Assembly: GCF_000331305.1 (NCBI RefSeq)
Contig: NZ_KB217478.1
Coordinates: 4,018,575 to 4,082,574, forward strand
DNA from: Calothrix sp. PCC 7103
GTDB lineage: Bacteria > Cyanobacteriota > Cyanobacteriia > Cyanobacteriales > Nostocaceae
DNA: 64,000 nucleotides
Direction of reading: 5' to 3'
Of this stretch, positions 2,621 through 16,969 are shown one piece after another. Position 1 is the stretch's first letter, and the number at the start of each line of letters is the position of its first letter. The position numbers and the translations under genes were made by a program. Below the pieces are notes generated by a model, which saw only the letters and a program-made list of their open reading frames with translations, was not told where the DNA came from and made no database searches.

Positions 2621-2891
2621 TTATCTTGAGAAAGCTTCGCGAATTACTGCATCCGTAACTGCTGCAACCTTCATTTTAATTAGTAAGGTATTCAAAGCCT
2701 CTCGACTTTTTTCATTACCTAATTGGCGCCTAAGTAAATAAAATAAATTAGTGACTGCATGTCCAGCAATATAACCTTCTACTTTACCTTGTGCTACTAA
2801 ATCTAAAGCAAGAGCAGATGCCCTAAAAAAAGGTTGTCGTTCGAGTAAAACATCTAAAAGCACAATCGCTATCAAATAATACCCGTTTCAC
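2621..2891 (-). pseudogene. PIN-domain (VapC-type) toxin, frameshifted and truncated
   Basis: VapC toxins are PIN-domain RNases. A GTG at 2891 overlaps the antitoxin stop as GTGA and begins a PIN-like start (KRVLFDS). One extra T soon after it moves the rest into another frame, where the protein resumes as LLDVLLERQPFF and continues to REAFSR. The reading frame then stops about 50 residues short of a normal PIN domain, so the C-terminal acidic residues are lost. The surviving open segment runs 2621-2875. Both the N-terminal frameshift and the missing C-terminus argue that the toxin is dead, apart from sequencing error at the single base. Confidence 0.7.
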
Positions 2892-3154
2892 TGATATTTT
2901 TCCTCTAGATAAGCTAAATACTCTTCCTGTAGTTCGTCCTTATTAAGATTTTCATTCACATTTTTTGGTTGCGATCTACCAATACCTACCAAACTTTGAG
3001 TCCAAGAATTGAGTACAAGAGCTTTATTCGGGTCGGGCAGTTGCTCAATAAAATTAGCAATTGCTTCATTTACAGACAATTGTTGCAACTCTGCCCAACG
3101 CTGTGCTTTTTGCAAAAGTTCGTCATTTAAACTCAATACTATTTCAGTTTGCAT
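2888..3154 (-). CDS. Antitoxin-like protein (DUF6364-like) of a VapBC-type pair
   Basis: 88-residue protein, starting MQTEIVLSLNDELLQ. The N-terminal beta strand followed by two helices looks like a ribbon-helix-helix-type DNA-binding antitoxin of the DUF6364 sort. The acidic C-terminus (EEYLAYLEEKYQ) would be the toxin-neutralising part. An upstream TTG at 3172 would add six residues, but I prefer the ATG at 3154. Its stop overlaps the GTG start of the PIN toxin by four bases, the usual arrangement of a translationally coupled toxin-antitoxin operon. The antitoxin appears intact although its toxin is broken. Confidence 0.65.
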   Translation of the reverse strand: MQTEIVLSLNDELLQKAQRWAELQQLSVNEAIANFIEQLPDPNKALVLNSWTQSLVGIGRSQPKNVNENLNKDELQEEYLAYLEEKYQ

Positions 3155-3367
3155 TTTTCTAGACCATGACAATAAGAGTTAATATAGTTCCACGTTACCA
3201 AAAATAAACTGCTTGAGCCATACAGGTATATTATTGGTATCGAAAGAAATATTCTATTTTAGATTGCATGTACTATTATAATAATTTATGCCTTGTAGAG
3301 CAAGGGCTATTGTGATAGATTAGGGATTCATAAAAGTGAGAGAGAGGTTCATCAGTCTGGGTTTTAT

Positions 3368-4212: not shown

Positions 4213-5220
4213 ATGGGCAGGCAACGTATTCTCTCTGGAGTTCAACCAACTGGTAACTTGCATCTAGGTAACTATTTTGGCGCCATTCGTAATTGGGTGG
4301 AAATTCAAGACCAGTTCGATAATTATTTTTGCGTGGTAGACTTGCACGCTATTACAGCACCTCACAATCCGGCAACGCTGGCTAGCGATACATATACTAT
4401 TGCAGCGTTGTATTTGGCGTGTGGTATTGATTTAGAGTATTCTAATATTTTTGTACAGTCGCATGTTTCTGCCCACAGCGAACTAGCTTGGCTACTTAAC
4501 TGTATTACACCCATGAACTGGCTGACTGATATGATTCAGTTTAAGGAAAAAGCTGTTAAGCAAGGTGAAAACGTTGGTGTTGGGTTGCTGGACTATCCTG
4601 TGTTGATGGCTGCGGATATTTTACTGTACAACGCTGATAAAGTACCTGTGGGTGAAGACCAAAAGCAGCATCTTGAGTTAACGCGCGATATTACAGACCG
4701 TTTCAACCATCTATTTGGTAAGGGAAAAAAGGTATTAAAGTCTCCCGAACCAATGATTCGTAAAGACGGCGCCCGTATAATGAGTCTCACTGACGGCACT
4801 AAAAAAATGTCAAAGTCAGACCCTGCTGAAGGTAGTCGCATTAACTTACTTGACTCACCCGATGAAATTACCAAGAAAATCAAACGGTGTAAAACTGACC
4901 CCATACGCGGTATTGTCTTCGATGACCCAGCGCGTCCCGAATGTCAGAATTTGCTGACAATATATATGTTGTTGTCGGGTAAGGAAAAGGAAGACGTAGC
5001 GGCAGAATGTGCGGATATGGGATGGGGAGATTTTAAGAAGTTGCTAACGGAAACAACGATAAATGCCCTAAAACCAGTTCAAGACAAATACGCTGAAGTC
5101 ATGGCAGATAAGGGTTATTTAGAGTCGGTACTGCGTGAAGGGCGCCGAAAAGCAGAAGTTGTTGCGAACCAAACATTAAAAGACGTAAAAACAGCAATGG
5201 GGTATTCTCTGCCACTGTGA
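4213..5220 (+). CDS. trpS: Tryptophan--tRNA ligase
   Basis: Charges tRNA-Trp with tryptophan in the cytosol. Class I aminoacyl-tRNA synthetase of 335 residues, the normal length for bacterial TrpRS. The ATP-binding HIGH-type motif is seen in PTGNLHLGNYFG near residue 12, and the KMSKS loop as GTKKMSKSDPAEGS near residue 197. The ATG at 4213 gives the conserved start MGRQRILSGVQPTG. It lies 42 bp upstream of the methylenetetrahydrofolate reductase-like gene on the same strand, so the two may be co-transcribed. Nothing unusual in the sequence. Confidence 0.97.
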   Translation: MGRQRILSGVQPTGNLHLGNYFGAIRNWVEIQDQFDNYFCVVDLHAITAPHNPATLASDTYTIAALYLACGIDLEYSNIFVQSHVSAHSELAWLLNCITPMNWLTDMIQFKEKAVKQGENVGVGLLDYPVLMAADILLYNADKVPVGEDQKQHLELTRDITDRFNHLFGKGKKVLKSPEPMIRKDGARIMSLTDGTKKMSKSDPAEGSRINLLDSPDEITKKIKRCKTDPIRGIVFDDPARPECQNLLTIYMLLSGKEKEDVAAECADMGWGDFKKLLTETTINALKPVQDKYAEVMADKGYLESVLREGRRKAEVVANQTLKDVKTAMGYSLPL

Positions 5221-5262
5221 GCTTTCCACATGGGGTAAAGTTGTGTTACAGCTGTACTTAGA

Positions 5263-6204
5263 GTGAAAATGCTCATTGTTATGCTTGATACACTAATACC
5301 AATTACTCCAGTTAAAGTAAGTTCATTTCGTGCTGCTGCTAGGAACGGCGAGTTTCTAGTAACAGCAGAGGTTTGCCCACCGAAAGGAGGTAATCCGCAA
5401 CACATGCTCCAAATGGCGGCGACCCTTAAGGGGAGGGTTCATGCCGTCAATATCACCGATGGTAGCCGAGCTGTGTTACGTATGTCTCCGCTAGTGGCGT
5501 CAGCAATTTTACTTCAAAACGGTATCGAGCCGATATGTCAATTTGCATGTCGAGACAGGAACCGTATTGGATTACAAGCTGATTTGATGGGCGCCCATGC
5601 ATTAGGAATTCAAAATATCCTAGCTTTAACAGGCGACCCTGTAAAAGCAGGCGACCACCCCGACTGTAAAGCTGTCTTCGACCTCGAAGCAGTGCGTTTG
5701 TTGCAAGTTATCCAGAAACTTAATTTAGGAGTCGATTATAACGATAAACCCCTGACCGATGGGGCGTTAGACTTATTTGTAGGCGCCGCAGTTGACCCGC
5801 AATGTAAAAGTTGGTCGGGGTTACAAAGTCGGTTTGAAAAGAAAGTAGAAGCAGGCGCCCAATTTTTCCAAAGTCAGCTAATCACCGATTTTGAAAGATT
5901 GGAAAAATTCATGGATACCATAGCTTTTGGGTGTAATAAACCCATACTTGCCGGGATATTCCTGTTGAAATCAGCCAAAAACGCCGAATTCATCAACCGA
6001 GCAGTACCAGGTGTAAATATACCCCAGCACATTATCGATAGATTAGCGCAAGCTAAAGACCCCTTAGAAGAGGGAATAAAAATTGCTGCCGAACAAGTCC
6101 AAATTGCGCGGCAACTGTGCCAAGGCGTGCATATGATGGCAGTCAAGCGCGAAGATTTAGTGGCGCCAATCTTAGATATGGCTGGTGTTGCGGCAGTTAA
6201 GTAG
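5263..6204 (+). CDS. Methylenetetrahydrofolate reductase-like protein
   Basis: Resembles the MetF TIM barrel that reduces 5,10-methylene-THF to 5-methyl-THF with FAD, feeding methionine synthesis. 313 residues. Family signatures are TAEVCPPKGG near the N-terminus, HAVNITDGSRAVLRMS, the flavin-contact LTGDP motif, and FFQSQLITDFE. The start is uncertain: GTG at 5263, ATG at 5269 and ATG at 5281 are all in frame, and homology only begins around FRAAARNGEFLVTAE. Cyanobacteria carry MetF-like proteins of this type; whether NADH is the electron donor cannot be told. It probably forms a short transcription unit with trpS. Confidence 0.85.
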   Translation: MKMLIVMLDTLIPITPVKVSSFRAAARNGEFLVTAEVCPPKGGNPQHMLQMAATLKGRVHAVNITDGSRAVLRMSPLVASAILLQNGIEPICQFACRDRNRIGLQADLMGAHALGIQNILALTGDPVKAGDHPDCKAVFDLEAVRLLQVIQKLNLGVDYNDKPLTDGALDLFVGAAVDPQCKSWSGLQSRFEKKVEAGAQFFQSQLITDFERLEKFMDTIAFGCNKPILAGIFLLKSAKNAEFINRAVPGVNIPQHIIDRLAQAKDPLEEGIKIAAEQVQIARQLCQGVHMMAVKREDLVAPILDMAGVAAVK

Positions 6205-6477: not shown

Positions 6478-7605
6478 ATGGCTAACCTAAATAATTATGA
6501 TGAAGAATTAACAGAAGATGGTTCAGACGAAGAATACGCGGATGAATATGAACCAGCTACTTTCCGTTATGACCCCGAACAAATAAATATTGTTACTAGA
6601 GAACCTACGATAGAGCAGCTACTAAGGCGAATAGATGAAGAGGCACTTAATTTAGCACCTGATTTTCAGCGTCAAGCTGGTATTTGGAATCCAGATGCAA
6701 AAAGTCGCCTTATTGAATCAGTTTTAATTCGTATTCCTCTTCCAGCATTTTATATAGATGCGACAGATGAAGAATATTGGTTAGTGGTAGATGGGTTACA
6801 AAGACTATCTGCTCTAAAATTATTTGTTACCGATAAAAAATTAAGGCTAAGTGGATTAGAATATCTCACAGAATTTAATGGCAAAACATATGATGATTTA
6901 GAACGTAGATATCAACGTCGTATATTAGAAACTCAAGTCAATGTTTACCTAATTGAAAAAGGTACACCCATTGAAGTAAAATATAATATCTTTAAAAGGA
7001 TTAATACAGGTGGTGTTCCTCTGTCTCCTCAAGAATTACGTCATGCTCTAAATCCTGGGAAATCAAGCAAGTTATTAGTTCGGCTTGCAGATTTAAAAGA
7101 ATTTCAAAGGGTAGTTAAGTTAAATGAATCTAAAAGAAAACGCATGGATGACAGAGAATTTATTCTTGGCTTTATAGCTTTTTATCTTACCCCTTACACT
7201 GAATATTATAAGGATAAAACAAGGGACTTGTTTTTAAGTAAAGCTTTGTTAAAAGCAAACCATATTTCCGATGAAGAGTTTAACCAGTTAGAGTTAAAGT
7301 TTAAAAAAATTATGATTACGGCATTTGACATTTTTGGATATAAAGCTTTCCGTAAAATTTCTAATACAAATCCAAGAACTTATCCTGTAAATAAATCTTT
7401 GTTTGAAGCTTGGTCTGTCTGTCTAAGTAAATTAGATGAGCAACACATTGAAAGATTAAAGCAAAAAAAACAAGAATTGATACATACTTTTAGTAATTAT
7501 GTAGACAATGATAAAGATTTTCTTTCTTCTATATCTCAAGCAGCGAATAAGGTTGAGTATAGATTTACTACCATTCAAAAAATTATCCAAGAAGTGTTGT
7601 CATGA
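6478..7605 (+). CDS. DUF262 (GmrSD N-terminal/ParB-like) protein
   Basis: 375-residue protein with the DUF262 fold, found in the N-terminal half of GmrSD-type and SspE-type defence enzymes, where it binds and hydrolyses nucleotides. After an acidic N-terminal tail the family hallmarks appear: PDFQRQAGIWN (61-71), LIESVLIRIPLPAFY, DGLQRL (105-110) and FKRINTGGVPLSPQELRHA. No C-terminal DUF1524/HNH nuclease domain is visible; the last third is helical and unassigned. Its stop overlaps the next ATG (ATGA), so it is translationally coupled to the ATPase that follows. AT-rich and without GGCGCC sites, unlike flanking genes. Inference: sensor or nuclease part of an anti-phage type cassette. Confidence 0.82.
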   Translation: MANLNNYDEELTEDGSDEEYADEYEPATFRYDPEQINIVTREPTIEQLLRRIDEEALNLAPDFQRQAGIWNPDAKSRLIESVLIRIPLPAFYIDATDEEYWLVVDGLQRLSALKLFVTDKKLRLSGLEYLTEFNGKTYDDLERRYQRRILETQVNVYLIEKGTPIEVKYNIFKRINTGGVPLSPQELRHALNPGKSSKLLVRLADLKEFQRVVKLNESKRKRMDDREFILGFIAFYLTPYTEYYKDKTRDLFLSKALLKANHISDEEFNQLELKFKKIMITAFDIFGYKAFRKISNTNPRTYPVNKSLFEAWSVCLSKLDEQHIERLKQKKQELIHTFSNYVDNDKDFLSSISQAANKVEYRFTTIQKIIQEVLS

Positions 7606-8708
7606 TTAATTCCCTTCGTTTGGTAAACTTCAAAACTTTTGAAAATCAGTTACTTGACTTTAAGCCATTAACTTTACTCTCTGGCGTGAATAGTACAGGT
7701 AAATCATCGGTTTTACAATCATTACTATTGCTGCGTCAATCGTATCAGCAAGAACTACTACCAAAAGAGGGCTTGGCTTTAAACGGTGAACTTATAAGGA
7801 TTGGAACGGCTCAAGATGCATTTTGTGAAAGAGCTAAAGATGATTATATACGCTTTGAACTTACTTGGAAAGATAGCTGCAAAGGAATATGGAATTTTAA
7901 ATATGACCTCGATAAGAAAGAAACCGATGTTTTAGATGTAGTTTCAGAAGAACTTGACTGTGAAGTTTATAGCTCAAGCTTATTTAGCAAGCAATTCCAT
8001 TATCTTCATGCAGAACGTATTGGTCCACGTCCATTTAATGAAATGTCGGATTATCAAGTAAGAAGACTTGGGCAAATAGGTATTAAAGGGGAATATACAG
8101 CACATTATCTTGCTGTGCATGAACGTAAAGCCATTCCGATTCCTGGTCTTAGTTATCCACAAGCTAAATCTATGGATTTGATAGACCAAGTTGAAGCTTG
8201 GATGAAAGAAGTAAGTCCTGGTACCCGTATCAAAATAAATTCAAATCCGGGTATGGATTTGATGAGTTTGCAATACTTTTTTGGAGATAGTAATCCTTAT
8301 CGTGCAACCAATGTAGGGTTTGGAATTAGCTATACATTGCCGATTATTGTCGCTGTTTTAGCCTCTAAACCAGACACTCTTATACTTATTGAAAATCCAG
8401 AAGCTCATCTTCACCCCAAAGGACAAGCAAAAATGGGTGAACTTTTGGCACTTGCAGCAAACTCTGGAGTTCAAGTTGTTATAGAAACTCATAGTGACCA
8501 TGTACTAAATGGAATTCGTCTTGCTGTTAATCGCAGTCAACTTGACCCCGAAAATGTCCAACTTCATTATTTTCAGCGTCAAGAAATAGAAGGAAGATTA
8601 GCTTTGACTGAGGTAGTATCGCCAAATATCGACCGTAACGGAAGAATTGATGAGTGGCCTGATGGCTTTTTCGACCAAATAGAAAAAGATTTGATGGAGT
8701 TAATTTAA
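7602..8708 (+). CDS. AAA/SMC-like ATPase with DUF3696 C-terminus
   Basis: 368-residue ABC/SMC-type ATPase of the AAA15/OLD-like group. The Walker A motif GVNSTGKSS is at about 28-36. The ABC-like centre is VGFGISYTLPII, the Walker B region is LILIENPEAHLHPKGQ (Glu catalytic), and the switch is IETHSDHVLNGIR. The C-terminus (DEWPDGFFDQIEKDL) is the DUF3696 signature. No TOPRIM domain is seen, so it is not an OLD nuclease. It is the middle gene of a coupled trio: four-base overlap upstream, and its TAA shares a base with the next ATG. A decayed paralogue starts at 9755. Inference: the motor or sensor of a defence-like operon. Confidence 0.85.
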   Translation: MINSLRLVNFKTFENQLLDFKPLTLLSGVNSTGKSSVLQSLLLLRQSYQQELLPKEGLALNGELIRIGTAQDAFCERAKDDYIRFELTWKDSCKGIWNFKYDLDKKETDVLDVVSEELDCEVYSSSLFSKQFHYLHAERIGPRPFNEMSDYQVRRLGQIGIKGEYTAHYLAVHERKAIPIPGLSYPQAKSMDLIDQVEAWMKEVSPGTRIKINSNPGMDLMSLQYFFGDSNPYRATNVGFGISYTLPIIVAVLASKPDTLILIENPEAHLHPKGQAKMGELLALAANSGVQVVIETHSDHVLNGIRLAVNRSQLDPENVQLHYFQRQEIEGRLALTEVVSPNIDRNGRIDEWPDGFFDQIEKDLMELI

Positions 8709-9469
8709 TGCATTTTTTGATTAATGAGCTTTCCTTTATTGGCCAAGCCGAAAATGAGTATGAAGCTAACTTGCTAATGATGGTGCTTTTTGAATTGGTA
8801 AAAGCACTAAAACCTATTCAAGGCAGTAAACCAATTTCAACACATAGAATGTTTTTTAGCTGTGCCGTATCACCAGGGTTTACTGTTAAAGACTGGGCAC
8901 ACCAAAAATCACGGAATCCAAAAGAAAAAGATATTGGTTTGCTATTTTTAAAACTTACGACTAAAGGGCCATTTATTGATGAAGTCGAGGGGATACCAGA
9001 AGAATTAAATACTTGTTACAAATGTTATTTTAATGAAACGGATATCTCTAGTAGTTCATTAGCAACTGCTGCATTTTTAAATAGTAAAGGTGCTTTAGTT
9101 AGCTTACAAAATGCACCTGATTTCATGGTTGAAATTGTTCCAGTCAAATTTTATATAAACGGAGATACTTACGAATATATAAAACTTTCTAATTTAACTC
9201 ATGTAACTCAAGTTAGTAAGCTTCGTCGTCTCTATGTTCCCAGTCCTAAGCACGCTATTGGTGGTTGGGGTACTCCAATGGATTTGAGTGATGAAATCGC
9301 TCAAGCAGTCTTAGACAAAGGTCTTTTTGGACAAAGCAAACAAATTTATGGTTACTATAATGGAAAATTTTATGAATTCCAACCTGACAATGCAGGTGGT
9401 TATCATGGATACCCAGTTAATGAGAGTGAGGTTCCTTCTTCAGTTTCTAAACAACTCAAAAAAAGTTAA
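8708..9469 (+). CDS. Unknown protein, third gene of DUF262/DUF3696 operon, toxin-like C-terminus
   Basis: 253 residues, family not recognised. It starts within the stop codon of the ATPase gene (TAATG), so it is translated as part of the same operon. The N-terminal two thirds are mixed alpha/beta with no motif I can name. The C-terminal 60 residues contain YYNGKFYEFQPDN and GGYHGYPVNESEVPSSV, which resemble the compact C-terminal nuclease domains of polymorphic toxins, with conserved-looking Tyr, His, Asp and Glu. This resemblance is from memory and not proven. It has no signal peptide or membrane segment, so it should act in the cytosol. Inferred role: effector of the cassette, or a substrate of it. 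Confidence 0.6.
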   Translation: MHFLINELSFIGQAENEYEANLLMMVLFELVKALKPIQGSKPISTHRMFFSCAVSPGFTVKDWAHQKSRNPKEKDIGLLFLKLTTKGPFIDEVEGIPEELNTCYKCYFNETDISSSSLATAAFLNSKGALVSLQNAPDFMVEIVPVKFYINGDTYEYIKLSNLTHVTQVSKLRRLYVPSPKHAIGGWGTPMDLSDEIAQAVLDKGLFGQSKQIYGYYNGKFYEFQPDNAGGYHGYPVNESEVPSSVSKQLKKS

Positions 9470-9754: not shown

Positions 9755-10764
9755 ATGATACATTCTTTATTATTAATAAATTTCAAAGTTTTTGAAGAAC
9801 AGCTTTTAAAGTTTCGTCCACTAACTGTACTATCAGGATTTAACAACATAGGTAAATCATCTGCATTACAATCGTTGTTATTATTAAGACAATCCTATCT
9901 GCAAGGAGTTTTAAGCGAGCCTTTGGCATTAAATGGTGATTTAGTATATATAGGAACAGCCCAAGAAGCACTTTTTAAACGAGCGGAAGAGCAATTTATT
10001 GATTTTGAACTTTTTGTAAACCATCAAGAAAAAAGCTGGCAATAGTGTTTTACATACGACTCAAAAGCTAATGTTTTAGAAACTAAAACGGCGCCTACAA
10101 TTTCAGAAATAGATAAATTTTGCCTATTCGGTAGTTCTTTTCACTATCTCCAAGCAGAAAGGATAGGTTTCTGCAAGATTCCTGATTCTGTAGTGCGCCA
10201 AAATTTTCAAATTGGAACAAAAGGTGAGTATACAGCACATTTTTTAAGTGTATTTGGAAACTGGGATATTAATAGAGTAAGTCTTGAGCGAAAAAATTAT
10301 TTGCAAGAAGTTAATACCGCTTGTGAATATTCTGAGCAAAGTACTCCGAACAAATTGTATCATCCCAGGCAAAATCACTTTGTTTGAAAGACCAAGTAGA
10401 AGCATGGATGAGCGAAATAAGTCCTGGAATCAAAATTTTTATCGTTTCAAATGAAGATATTGATTCAAACAGTCTACAATATTGTTTTGAAAATAAAAAT
10501 CATAACAGCAAAAAATATAACTCTACTAATGTAGGATTTGGCATTTCTTCCACTTTACCAATTGTTGTTGCGCTACTTGCGTCTCCTCCAGGTTCGTTAA
10601 TGATTATCGAACATCCAGAGGGACATTTACATCCTAGTGGATCGACTAAAATCGGTAAGTTAATAGCACTTGCAGCAAGTAGTGGAATTCAAGTAATTAT
10701 CGAAACTCATAGCGACCATATTTTAAATGGTATCCGTGTATCAGTACATGGAGGTTTAATTAAC
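9755..10764 (+). pseudogene. Decayed second copy of the DUF3696-type ATPase
   Basis: Clearly paralogous to the ATPase at 7602, from MIHSLLLINFKVFEEQ through Walker A (SGFNNIGKSS), SFHYLQAERIG, GEYTAHFL, DQVEAWMSEISPG and IIEHPEGHLHPSG to THSDHILNGIR. Two lesions are visible. An in-frame TAG after KSWQ (about 10043) replaces what was probably TGG. A one-base deletion in a C run at about 10364-10366 shifts the frame before QAKSLCLKDQVEAWM. Homology stops near 10764, before the DUF3696 tail, and runs directly into a Uma2-type fragment. The DUF262 and third-gene partners are absent from this copy. Confidence 0.85.
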
Positions 10765-11164
10765 GAAGTAGCAGAGTCTCAAAAAGCTGCCTTGGCATTA
10801 CCCGAACTGCGTTGTACATTTGGCGGCGCCACCGTAGTTCCTGATGTTGCTGTATTTCGATGGGGAACGCATACCCCGAACTGGGTCTGGAAGAATTGCC
10901 AACCGCTTTGATAGCCATCCTGACTGGGCAATAGAAATTCTCTCACCAGAGCAAAGCCAAACTAAAGTTCTCCGTAACCTGCTGCATTGCAGTAAAAACG
11001 GTACAGAACTAGGGTGGTTAATTCTTCCAGATGAAGACGGCATTTTTGTTGTACATCCTAACCAACGTGTTGAGCTACTAGAAAGAGCAGACATACTCCC
11101 CATTATTAGTAATATTGACCTATCTCTAACCGTCGAACAAATTTTTAACTGGCTAAATATTTAA
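10765..11164 (+). pseudogene. Uma2-family (DUF820) endonuclease remnant
   Basis: C-terminal part of a Uma2-type PD-(D/E)XK-like protein, a family highly multiplied in cyanobacteria. Visible are LPELRCTFGGATVVPDVAVFRW, then after a shift ERIPRTGSGRIANRF, HPDWAIEILSPEQSQTK and LTVEQIFNWL. An extra G in the GGGG run at 10862-10865 breaks the frame exactly between W and ERIP. The N-terminal third is missing: the fragment is joined in frame to the ATPase remnant. The joint marks a deletion or recombination between two formerly separate genes. Confidence 0.8.
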
Positions 11165-12836: not shown

Positions 12837-14099
12837 ATGCCAAACCCTTACTATGTCGGTGGTCCAGTGCCTTTAGAGTATTTTTTTGGACGCGCGTCAG
12901 AAATTACAACAGCGTTTGACCAAATTTCTAAACGCGCGCATTTAGCAATATACGGTAGTCCTGGTATGGGAAAATCCTCTTTGCTCAGATACTTAGCGGC
13001 GCCTGAAATTTGGAAGAGACGAGGAAAGGACATATCAAAAGTATTTATTGTTTCACTTAGCTGTGCTGGTATTAGTCCGTTTACTCCTTCAGAGTTTTGG
13101 CGCGAAATTTTAAATCGTTTATACGATGATGCTAATGAAGCTTTACGAAGCGATATTGACCAGATATTGGACGATGAGCAAGTCGAAAAAGGAGATTTAC
13201 GACGTATTCTCAAAAAAATTGGACAGCAAGATAAGTTTTTATTACTCCTACTCGATGACTACGATGCGGCGTTGCGTACTAATGACCAGTACACCGAAGT
13301 CGAAATGCTGACTTTTTTGAGTGAGTTTCGCGACTTAGCGGTTCATAGCAACGAAGGTAGATACCTCTCTACTGTTGTCACTACTTTTCGGCGCCTCAAT
13401 GAACTCGGTCCCACTATCACACCCGGTGGTTCTCCGTGGTACAATCATTATTTATTTCGACTGCTGCGACCATTAACGACAAATGAAGTTAGTACCCAGT
13501 TGTTCGTTCAAATTTCTGGTTTATTTAGAGAAGGTGTTTTAAAGATTATTGATGGACACCCAGCTTTACTGCAAAATGCTGGTTATTTGCTGTATGAAAC
13601 CCTTGAAGCTGGACAAACTCCTAATATTGATATTTTTACACGAGACTTTGAAAGCGCTACAGAGCAGTATTTTCGGGATACTTGGAGATTTTCTACTGAT
13701 GAAGAACAAATTTTATTGATGTTAATCGCACTTTGTAATTTACAAGGTCGTTTGAATAGAAATACTCGTTATGGTTTGGGTGATGTTGACCTTGTTTTTA
13801 GTCAGCGCAGTCGAGAACTTGTTGACTTAGAAGAACGAGGTGTAATTCAGCATACAGTTTCTGAAGGCAAAACTGTTTATAGTTTTACTTCTTCGATGAT
13901 GGAGTGGTGGGTTATTCAAGAGATTCAAAATAGCAACGAAGAAAAACTACTAGCACGTGAGAGAGTTTTTCTCAATTTAATGAGTCGTGAACAAGCACAA
14001 AAAACACAGCAAGCTATTCGCTGGTTATGGCAAAATAAAGATATTGTTCAATCTGTAGTTATTACTGTTATTAAACAGTTTTTTGGCGCCCCCGCTTAG
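12837..14099 (+). CDS. STAND/Orc1-like AAA ATPase
   Basis: 420-residue P-loop NTPase. An N-terminal VGGPVPLEYFFGR box precedes the nucleotide-binding domain, as in Orc1/Cdc6-like and novel STAND ATPases. Walker A is GSPGMGKSS near residue 42; Walker B is LLLLLDDYD near residue 136. Residues 260-380 look like winged-helix material (DLEERGVIQHTVSEG, TVYSFTSSMMEWWV). No membrane segment or catalytic effector domain is fused. It is followed after 41 bp by a larger ATPase with the same FFFGRE-type box, so the pair is likely an operon. Cyanobacteria use such ATPases in signalling and conflict systems; the target here is unknown. Confidence 0.75.
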   Translation: MPNPYYVGGPVPLEYFFGRASEITTAFDQISKRAHLAIYGSPGMGKSSLLRYLAAPEIWKRRGKDISKVFIVSLSCAGISPFTPSEFWREILNRLYDDANEALRSDIDQILDDEQVEKGDLRRILKKIGQQDKFLLLLLDDYDAALRTNDQYTEVEMLTFLSEFRDLAVHSNEGRYLSTVVTTFRRLNELGPTITPGGSPWYNHYLFRLLRPLTTNEVSTQLFVQISGLFREGVLKIIDGHPALLQNAGYLLYETLEAGQTPNIDIFTRDFESATEQYFRDTWRFSTDEEQILLMLIALCNLQGRLNRNTRYGLGDVDLVFSQRSRELVDLEERGVIQHTVSEGKTVYSFTSSMMEWWVIQEIQNSNEEKLLARERVFLNLMSREQAQKTQQAIRWLWQNKDIVQSVVITVIKQFFGAPA

Positions 14100-14124
14100 T
14101 TAGATTTGCTGCTAAAATCAAAGT

Positions 14125-14132
14125 AGGGGAGG
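14125..14132 (+). promoter_or_regulatory. Strong ribosome binding site deciding the ATPase start
   Basis: An AGGGGAGG-type sequence lies 8-9 bases upstream of the ATG at 14141 and fixes the start there rather than at the TTG at 14135. Such a clear Shine-Dalgarno is uncommon among the other genes of this window. Confidence 0.6.
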
Positions 14133-14140
14133 TATTGCTG

Positions 14141-16969
14141 ATGGTGTTCTCTGCTACTGAGTACTCAGAAAATCCTTACATAATTGGGCGCCCAATTTAT
14201 GAACCAGAATTCTTTTTTGGGCGTGAAGAACTGTTTAATTTTATTAAGGATAATTTAAATCAGAAAGTACAGGTTATTTTGCTGCATGGTCAGCGGCGAA
14301 TTGGCAAGACTTCTGTTTTATCTCAGATTCCTAATTTTGTTTGTTTAGATAACTTTGAGTTTGTACTTTTATCGTTAGAAGGTAAAAGTCAAAAATTGTT
14401 ACATGAAGTTTTGTATGAATTAAGTGAAGATATTTTTGATTATTTTGATTTTACCAAAGAACAAGTAAAATTACCAACTAGAGAAGCACTAAAAGAGGAT
14501 AAATTAATATTTTTTGATGTTTTTTTACCTCAAGTTTATCAGGCACTTGGTAATAAAAATTTAGTACTTTTACTTGATGAGTTTGATGTTTTGGGTGACT
14601 CTCACTCAGATTCGGCGGTAACTCATTTTTTCCCTTTTTTACTATCGGTTATTCACAGGCAACCGCAGCTTTACATTATACCTGTAGTAGGGCGGCGCCT
14701 GGATGATATGCCAAACCTACTCTCGTTGTTTCGAGAGGCTCCTACTCAAGAAATTGGTTTACTCGATACAACGAATGCAGAACGTTTAATTACTAAACCA
14801 GCGAGTAGTAGTTTAATTTACGAACCAGATGCTATTAATGCCATTTTAGAATTATCAGCAGGACATCCTTATTTTACTCAGGTGTTATGTTTTGCGCTGT
14901 TTAGCCATGCTAGAGAAAAACAACAACCTCATATCACTCGCGCGGATGTATATAACATTATTAATCAAGCAATCGAAATTGGCGAAGCTGGATTAACATG
15001 GTTTAGAGATGGTCTACCAATACCAGAACGAGTTATTTTCTCTACGGTTGCAGAAATGCAGCAAGAAAAGTCTAAATCAGCTGTACTTCAAGGTACACCA
15101 TTAGCATTACTACAAAAACATGGAGTTATCGCTAACGAAGCATTACACAAAGCAGAAACTCGCTTACTTGAATGGAATTTCTTAAAAATTTTTGATGATG
15201 CTAGAATGCTACAAGCAAGTAGCTATGTAGTAACTGTTGAGTTAGTTCGTCGTTGGCTAATTAAACGTTGTCCATTACGTCGAGAAATATGGGAACTTGA
15301 AAAACTTGATGAGTCACTTGTTCATTCTATATACGAACAAGCCATTAAAGAGCGGCAAATTGGAGAATTATTAACCGCACTTGAATTATTCCAGCAGGTT
15401 TTAACGATAAATCCTAATCACTTTCATGCGCTGTTTGAACTAGCAGAGTTGTATTTTGATATTGGAGACTATTATCAAGCTGTAGAACTTTATACAAGGG
15501 CGCATAAAATTGACCCAGTGCGTAATCAAGAAGCTTTAGAGCGCGCGAAACAAAGTTATGCAAATCAAGGTAAACAGTATAATACATTTCGTGGCGCCAG
15601 TAGTAATACTCTTCACGAATCCAGCACTAGTTATAATATTCCTCGACTTGACCTTGAAAAATTTTATCAAGCTTTCAATCCAAGTAGACCTTTACTGCTA
15701 GATAATGCTTTAAACCAGAAATATTATGTTGATTTTGCGTCGGTACGTGGTGGTAAAATAGCGGAGTCTTTAGCACGCACAATTACGCGCATATCTCCAG
15801 AAGCGCCTACATGTCAGTTACTTACGGGTCATATTGGTTGTGGTAAGTCAACCGAACTGCTGCGTCTCAAAGCTGACTTAGAGCAGCAAAGCTTTCATGT
15901 CGTTTATTTTGAATCTAGCTATATATTAGATATGGTCGATGTCGATTTAATTGACATCTTGCTTGCCATTGTCGAACAAGTTGCTGAAAGTCTCAAAGCT
16001 ATCAACATTCGTTTCGAGTCTAACTACTTTACTAAGCTGTTTGGAGAAATCAATAATTTTCTGCAAACACCTCTCGACTTAGAACTAGAAGGATTATCTG
16101 CTGGTGCAGCTAAGATTACCGCGAAAACTAAGGAAAACCCTAATAGAAGACGACAACTGCGTGATTATCTAGAACCTCATACAGATAATATCCTGCAATT
16201 GCTCAATCAAGAACTTTCAAATATAAACACCCAGTTAAAAGCAAAAGGTAAAAAAGGACTAGTTGTTATTATCGATAACCTTGACCGATTAGATATTCAT
16301 ACTTTACCTTCTGGACGTTCGTTACCAGAACATATATTTCTCGACCACAGCGAAGAATTACGCCGTATCAATTGTCATATTGTATACACTGTACCGATGT
16401 CCTTGGTTTTATCGAATGACAATGCTTTGCTACAAAACCGTTTGGGAGGAGGAGTGGCGCCGCGCGTATTGTCTATGATACCAGTACGACATAGAAATGG
16501 AGAAATTAATAGTGTGGGACTAGCGCTAATGCGACAAGTCGTACTCGCACGTGCTTTTCCAGATGTGAGTCCAGATATGAGTCCTGTTGAAAGATTAAAG
16601 TTAATCAAGCAAATATTCGACTCACACTCAACCCTTGACAGGTTGTGTTTAATAAGTGGAGGTCACGTTCGAGATTTACTGGGACTTGTATTTGAATGCT
16701 TACGCGAACAAGACCCGCCCTTTGAGCGAGATACAGTAGAAGCAGTAATTCGACGCTATCGAGACTTTCGGGCAAATCCAATTGATTCTCAAGAATGGGA
16801 TTTAATATTTGAAGTTTTAGAAAAGCAACATATTAAAGATGATGTTAAATACCACACGCTATTAAATAGTCTGTTTATCTTCGAGTACCGCGACACAGAC
16901 GGTTCTTGGTTTGCAATTCATCCCATCTTGGCTGAAACAAAGCAATTTCAATCGTGGTTAGCTTCATAA
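14141..16969 (+). CDS. Double P-loop ATPase with TPR linker
   Basis: About 942 residues in three parts. First, a STAND-like ATPase: PEFFFGREE box, Walker A GQRRIGKTS near 50-58, Walker B LVLLLDEFD, then helical and winged-helix material to about 385. Second, two or three TPRs (LELFQQVLTINPNHFHAL, AVELYTRAHKIDP) near 400-470. Third, a second and different P-loop NTPase with Walker A TGHIGCGKS near 565 and Walker B LVVIIDNLDRLD, ending in EYRDTDGSWFAIHP. The ATG at 14141 has a strong AGGGGAGG ribosome site nine bases before it; a TTG six bases upstream is less likely. Two complete NTPase modules in one chain is unusual and suggests fusion of a sensor ATPase with a second switch. No enzyme effector domain is seen. 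Confidence 0.75.
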   Translation: MVFSATEYSENPYIIGRPIYEPEFFFGREELFNFIKDNLNQKVQVILLHGQRRIGKTSVLSQIPNFVCLDNFEFVLLSLEGKSQKLLHEVLYELSEDIFDYFDFTKEQVKLPTREALKEDKLIFFDVFLPQVYQALGNKNLVLLLDEFDVLGDSHSDSAVTHFFPFLLSVIHRQPQLYIIPVVGRRLDDMPNLLSLFREAPTQEIGLLDTTNAERLITKPASSSLIYEPDAINAILELSAGHPYFTQVLCFALFSHAREKQQPHITRADVYNIINQAIEIGEAGLTWFRDGLPIPERVIFSTVAEMQQEKSKSAVLQGTPLALLQKHGVIANEALHKAETRLLEWNFLKIFDDARMLQASSYVVTVELVRRWLIKRCPLRREIWELEKLDESLVHSIYEQAIKERQIGELLTALELFQQVLTINPNHFHALFELAELYFDIGDYYQAVELYTRAHKIDPVRNQEALERAKQSYANQGKQYNTFRGASSNTLHESSTSYNIPRLDLEKFYQAFNPSRPLLLDNALNQKYYVDFASVRGGKIAESLARTITRISPEAPTCQLLTGHIGCGKSTELLRLKADLEQQSFHVVYFESSYILDMVDVDLIDILLAIVEQVAESLKAINIRFESNYFTKLFGEINNFLQTPLDLELEGLSAGAAKITAKTKENPNRRRQLRDYLEPHTDNILQLLNQELSNINTQLKAKGKKGLVVIIDNLDRLDIHTLPSGRSLPEHIFLDHSEELRRINCHIVYTVPMSLVLSNDNALLQNRLGGGVAPRVLSMIPVRHRNGEINSVGLALMRQVVLARAFPDVSPDMSPVERLKLIKQIFDSHSTLDRLCLISGGHVRDLLGLVFECLREQDPPFERDTVEAVIRRYRDFRANPIDSQEWDLIFEVLEKQHIKDDVKYHTLLNSLFIFEYRDTDGSWFAIHPILAETKQFQSWLAS

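Follow-up and report, generated by a model that had tools for sequence, protein, structure and literature searches.

What does the third gene of a tightly coupled trio in the cyanobacterium Calothrix sp. PCC 7103 encode, and does the trio belong to a defence system that already has a name? The trio lies in the 64,000-nucleotide stretch analysed here (the window: NCBI RefSeq assembly GCF_000331305.1, contig NZ_KB217478.1, positions 4,018,575 to 4,082,574 of the forward strand), in whose own numbering all positions below are given. An earlier note on this DNA had described a coupled operon of a DUF262 protein, an SMC/OLD-like ATPase with a DUF3696 domain and an effector-like protein of unknown family, and could name no matching system. 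Judged by its sequence, the trio is a Menshen anti-phage defence operon with the usual gene order and coupling. The informative detail of this copy appears to be its effector, NsnC, whose tip is common to competition toxins and seems to have been exchanged on a putative sensor backbone of NsnA and NsnB.

Identity of the Operon

All three genes lie on the + strand and start with ATG. NsnA (gene 1, 6478..7605) is a DUF262/ParB-like NTPase of 375 residues, NsnB (gene 2, 7602..8708) an OLD/SMC-like ATPase of 368 residues with a C-terminal DUF3696 domain, and NsnC (gene 3, 8708..9469), the predicted effector, has 253 residues. The coordinates of the open reading frames (ORFs) and their overlaps are as the note had them, four bases (ATGA) between genes 1 and 2 and one base (TAATG) between genes 2 and 3. 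The four-base NsnA-NsnB overlap recurs in 39 of 51 NsnA loci from other genomes, so the coupling goes beyond chance.

Each protein was recognized by its own PADLOC family. Gene 1 matched NsnA at 8.1e-131 over residues 6-374 (runner-up family PD-T4-2_A, 1.7e-36); its sole Pfam domain is GmrSD_N/DUF262 (PF03235, 1.2e-23), and its motif VDGLQR at residue 104 has a counterpart in 53/53 NsnA proteins examined. Gene 2 matched NsnB at 1.8e-130 over residues 1-368 (runner-up HEC-03B, 3e-35) and, in Pfam, AAA_15 (PF13175, 1.8e-25), DUF3696 (PF12476, 4.7e-21) and AAA_21, with both Walker A and Walker B kept. Gene 3 matched NsnC model PDLC03898 at 7.6e-114 over residues 1-252, and every one of the 13 PADLOC families that it matched is an NsnC model; it gave nothing above the Pfam cut-off and nothing in NCBIfam. 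No Pfam match to the DUF1524 HNH nuclease was found in any of the three proteins, and none to TOPRIM in NsnB, NsnC or elsewhere in the trio.

The coupling, the domain assignments and the lack of DUF1524 that the note had reported therefore stand. What falls is its view that the system is unnamed, since the trio matches Menshen, an outcome that the note itself had listed as refuting it, and that the third gene is of unknown family. The NsnB family by itself is unspecific, occurring at 29 places in its own genome and in 14/14 control genomes; it is the trio together that marks the system as Menshen. With all three frames full length and their motifs kept, the operon is, on the evidence of its reading frames, an intact member of an already known defence system.

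The 51 loci were collected with the window's own NsnA as query, and tail-type counts drawn from them are therefore not prevalences. In 43 of them NsnA and NsnB, each of at least 330 residues, are directly followed by a third ORF, so the linkage that the note had proposed to check by gene order holds elsewhere; of the other eight, L060 is cut by a contig end, and in seven a component is broken or absent. The third gene is short (194-231 residues) in four of the 43 trios (L016, L024, L034 and L048), and 42/45 third-gene proteins, from 44 loci and the window, match NsnC model PDLC03879 at 1e-5. NsnA itself is patchy (23/292 cyanobacterial genomes at 1e-40). The window's NsnC type occurs in 11/386 genomes, and PDLC03898 matches 0/14 control genomes. 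Ten of these 11 genomes, the window's own among them, have NsnA on the same strand as NsnC and one gene upstream of it; nine of the ten are full trios, and one of the ten NsnC matches has an in-frame stop (G064). The eleventh genome (G385) has a broken NsnC copy and no detectable NsnA, while G245 has one trio plus a separate broken copy with an inverted NsnC; the broken copies of both genomes lie behind a gene resembling that for methylenetetrahydrofolate reductase (MTHFR). The tail alone was found in 9/386 genomes, and all 10 places lie inside NsnC places.

A Toxin-Like Tail in NsnC

The best 120 of 126 relatives from a protein search with NsnC form two sets. P0001-P0100 span 66-100% of the query, while P0101-P0120 span 28-46%, at the C-terminal end only, with 46-65% identity. 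Of the latter 20, five carry the name filamentous haemagglutinin, one is annotated as a VENN pre-toxin and one as a pretoxin-HINT protein, the others being unnamed or hypothetical. The match is reciprocal, as six of six tested tips of the contact-dependent inhibition (CDI) type scored 4e-24 to 7e-27 against PDLC03898, within its tail; NsnC calls made without NsnA and NsnB therefore need care. Fourteen residues are identical in more than 90% of both sets (100 NsnC and 20 other proteins): Y176, K181, H182, M191, L193, A198, L202, Y214, Y222, F224, D227, H233, G234 and P243. These reciprocal profile matches and common residues lead us to conclude that the window NsnC ends in a CDI-type competition toxin tip.

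The protein is a conserved N-terminal domain joined to an exchangeable C-terminal domain, the latter common to polymorphic (CDI-type) toxin tips. The N-terminal domain (8708..9202, + strand, residues about 1-165) is common to NsnC proteins with differing tails and is perhaps PIN-like in fold. The toxin-like tail (9221..9466, + strand) comprises residues 172-253. The AlphaFold model of NsnC is of high confidence (predicted local distance difference test, pLDDT, 91.8; predicted template modelling score, pTM, 0.81), and the model resembles 5T87. NsnC tails look like ribonuclease (RNase)-type toxins, in keeping with the note's suggestion that the third gene could be the effector. Neither a carrier or pre-toxin region nor a secretion domain was matched by Pfam or NCBIfam in the 253-residue protein.

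YoeB- and CDI-type toxins are normally paired with a neutralising partner. Clustering of the ORFs of at least 60 residues that lie up to 1.5 kb downstream at 44 loci revealed no conserved immunity neighbour, the largest cluster comprising 4 loci, although the tip's actual immunity protein was not searched for. Because the usual partner was not found as a conserved neighbour, NsnC is probably restrained by NsnA/NsnB or by its own N-terminal domain.

Probable Exchange of Effectors on the NsnA/NsnB Backbone

The 43 trios found with the window NsnA comprise 31 RelE-like tails, 3 CDI-like tails and 9 that are other or short, the RelE-like typing model having been built from the A4 rows, mostly the same loci that it then types. 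Nine extra loci (L091-L099) were picked for carrying the window's NsnC type. For a careful tree of NsnA plus NsnB, 44/53 rows were kept; L057-L059, L061-L065 and L091, two of them with a CDI-like tail, were dropped for long branches or remoteness. In the 44-row tree the window falls within a supported set of 18 rows (96/88), of which 16 are RelE-like and one has a short third gene, so that the window alone is CDI-like. Grouping the 11 CDI-like rows apart from the 29 RelE-like ones was rejected (log-likelihood 136.8 lower; approximately unbiased test, p-AU 3.3e-5). At least four changes of tail type are required in this tree and six in a quick tree of all 53 rows, counts in which tail gain is not separated from tail loss. 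The tail types are nevertheless clustered on the tree (0/500 shuffles as low), so exchange would be only occasional.

A tRNA-synthetase gene (W/Y family, tryptophanyl-like) and an MTHFR-like gene lie upstream of the operon in the window (4213-6204), and the same pair precedes 12/60 loci. Of the 12, nine are complete and every one of these has a RelE-like tail; two of them (L027, L028) come from one organism. Inspection by eye also places L089 and L090, two broken loci with CDI-like NsnC remains, behind an MTHFR-like gene. The pair marks a common chromosomal site or integration hotspot. NsnA plus NsnB of the window and of L017 agree at 74% over 738 columns. Since the flanks are common to the window and RelE-like loci, the effector gene differs at one chromosomal site while NsnA and NsnB stay similar, and effector genes thus appear to be exchanged on this backbone. 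Domain polymorphism in Menshen is announced in the title of Li et al. 2025 (NAR, gkaf357), and we do not claim tail polymorphism as new.

Separately, 2/45 third-gene proteins matched PADLOC CARF_DUF2103 (best 5.9e-13). Inspection by eye assigns them to L058 and L061, which have similar tails that perhaps represent a further type.

Proposed Mechanism and Alternatives

We think it probable that this Menshen operon defends against phage through an NsnA/NsnB sensor that restrains NsnC, whose RNase-like tail acts on infection. NsnA, the ParB-like NTPase, and NsnB, the OLD/SMC-like ATPase, would together hold NsnC harmless, the sensor standing in place of an immunity protein. Infection would free or activate NsnC, and the tail of NsnC, as a small nuclease whose likeliest substrate is tRNA or rRNA, would halt translation and shut the infected cell down ahead of phage production. 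The tail would then probably be an RNA-cutting self-destruct switch; we infer its RNase activity and its target, and likewise how NsnC is restrained and activated. PARIS provides a working analogy, and NsnB scores 1.4e-28 against AriA. In that system, according to PMC12839542, a phage protein is sensed by AriA, an OLD-type ATPase, which then switches on the tRNA-cleaving effector AriB. A broader picture, on which we are evenly divided, sees Menshen as a holder into which different RNase toxins can be plugged. An unchanging sensor of NsnA and NsnB, together with an adaptor that is possibly an inactive PIN-like domain, would accept tips from competition and toxin-antitoxin toxins, the sensor replacing the immunity protein and the whole effector gene being swapped at one cyanobacterial chromosomal site with the sensor left in place.

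A 2026 review table (PMC12926258) classes the Menshen mechanism as unknown. We regard as unlikely, though as the strongest of the alternatives, a DNA-targeting, restriction-like complex in which NsnA reads (perhaps modified) phage DNA and NsnB too works on DNA, the attack by NsnC or another component being directed at phage DNA and not at host RNA. DUF262 senses DNA modification in GmrSD, SspE and probably Dazbog, and an OLD/TOPRIM nuclease is attributed to Menshen, according to PMC10952713; the trio, however, has no DUF1524 or TOPRIM match, and the RNase-type look of the NsnC tails speaks against this alternative.

Much less probable is that the trio serves competition or addiction, as a toxin-antitoxin system would, so that the defence shown by other Menshen systems would not extend to the window copy. 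A tail common to competition toxins and YoeB would fit such a role, but NsnC has no carrier or secretion domain match and no conserved immunity neighbour, and both NsnA and NsnB match a defence system over their full length. Equally improbable is a decaying operon whose function is lost, for although a second, decayed NsnB adjoins it, the G245 and G385 loci behind the MTHFR-like gene are broken and 7/51 loci are damaged or incomplete, the three window frames are full length and keep their motifs.

If the anti-phage reading with a restrained RNase-like effector holds, a formerly unknown gene gains a specific predicted role, that of a CDI-type toxin tip within a phage-defence effector. Competition and phage defence, each an arsenal of bacteria, are thereby connected and important residues are predicted, and the question is raised of what holds the toxin in check when it has no immunity protein.

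Neighbouring Genes

Directly behind the operon, and outside the system, lies a decayed NsnB remnant (9755..10764, + strand), which is interrupted by stop codons and frameshifts and matches NsnB at 2.4e-35 and 2.9e-49. It derives from the NsnB of another Menshen-like system, its best relatives, about 55-60% identical to it, being NsnB proteins from other loci. An ORF with a partial Uma2 domain (10844-11164) overlaps its end. Farther off, 12837-16969 holds two adjoining AAA_16/nSTAND-like ATPases, of which the second has TPR repeats and which gave weak PADLOC matches only, and at 2621-3172 on the - strand a small PIN_3 protein stands beside a DUF6364 protein, a likely toxin-antitoxin pair. Elsewhere in the genome (C7, about 7.952-7.956 Mb; L008:1492-3759, L003:1510-3084), an operon of an AAA protein, a 349-residue protein and a DUF262 protein matches PADLOC candidate PDC-M55 A, B and C.

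Comparison with Known Systems

Menshen is said to have been described originally by Millman et al. in 2022. The window operon shares with it the three proteins, the order of their genes and the way these are coupled; it differs in the CDI-type tail of NsnC, where most NsnC found with the window NsnA are RelE-like (31/43), and in an NsnB without a TOPRIM match, although a review (PMC10952713) credits Menshen with an OLD/TOPRIM nuclease. That review also states that Menshen contains DUF262 without DUF1524 and that losing the DUF262 gene abolishes resistance.

GmrSD, SspE and BrxU share with NsnA the DUF262 domain and its nucleotide motif, but the trio lacks their DUF1524 nuclease match and places ATPase and effector in separate genes. 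PARIS (AriA-AriB) likewise combines an OLD-type ATPase with an effector, and differs in that NsnB fits its own model far better than AriA and that the trio has a DUF262 protein; gene 3 matches NsnC models exclusively, and not AriB. The likeness to CDI and other polymorphic toxins (CdiA-CT, filamentous haemagglutinin, VENN and HINT pre-toxins) is confined to the C-terminal 80 residues of NsnC and the 5T87-like model. The window protein differs in having no carrier or pre-toxin domain match and no conserved immunity neighbour, and its tip sits on the NsnC N-terminal domain, within an NsnA/NsnB operon.
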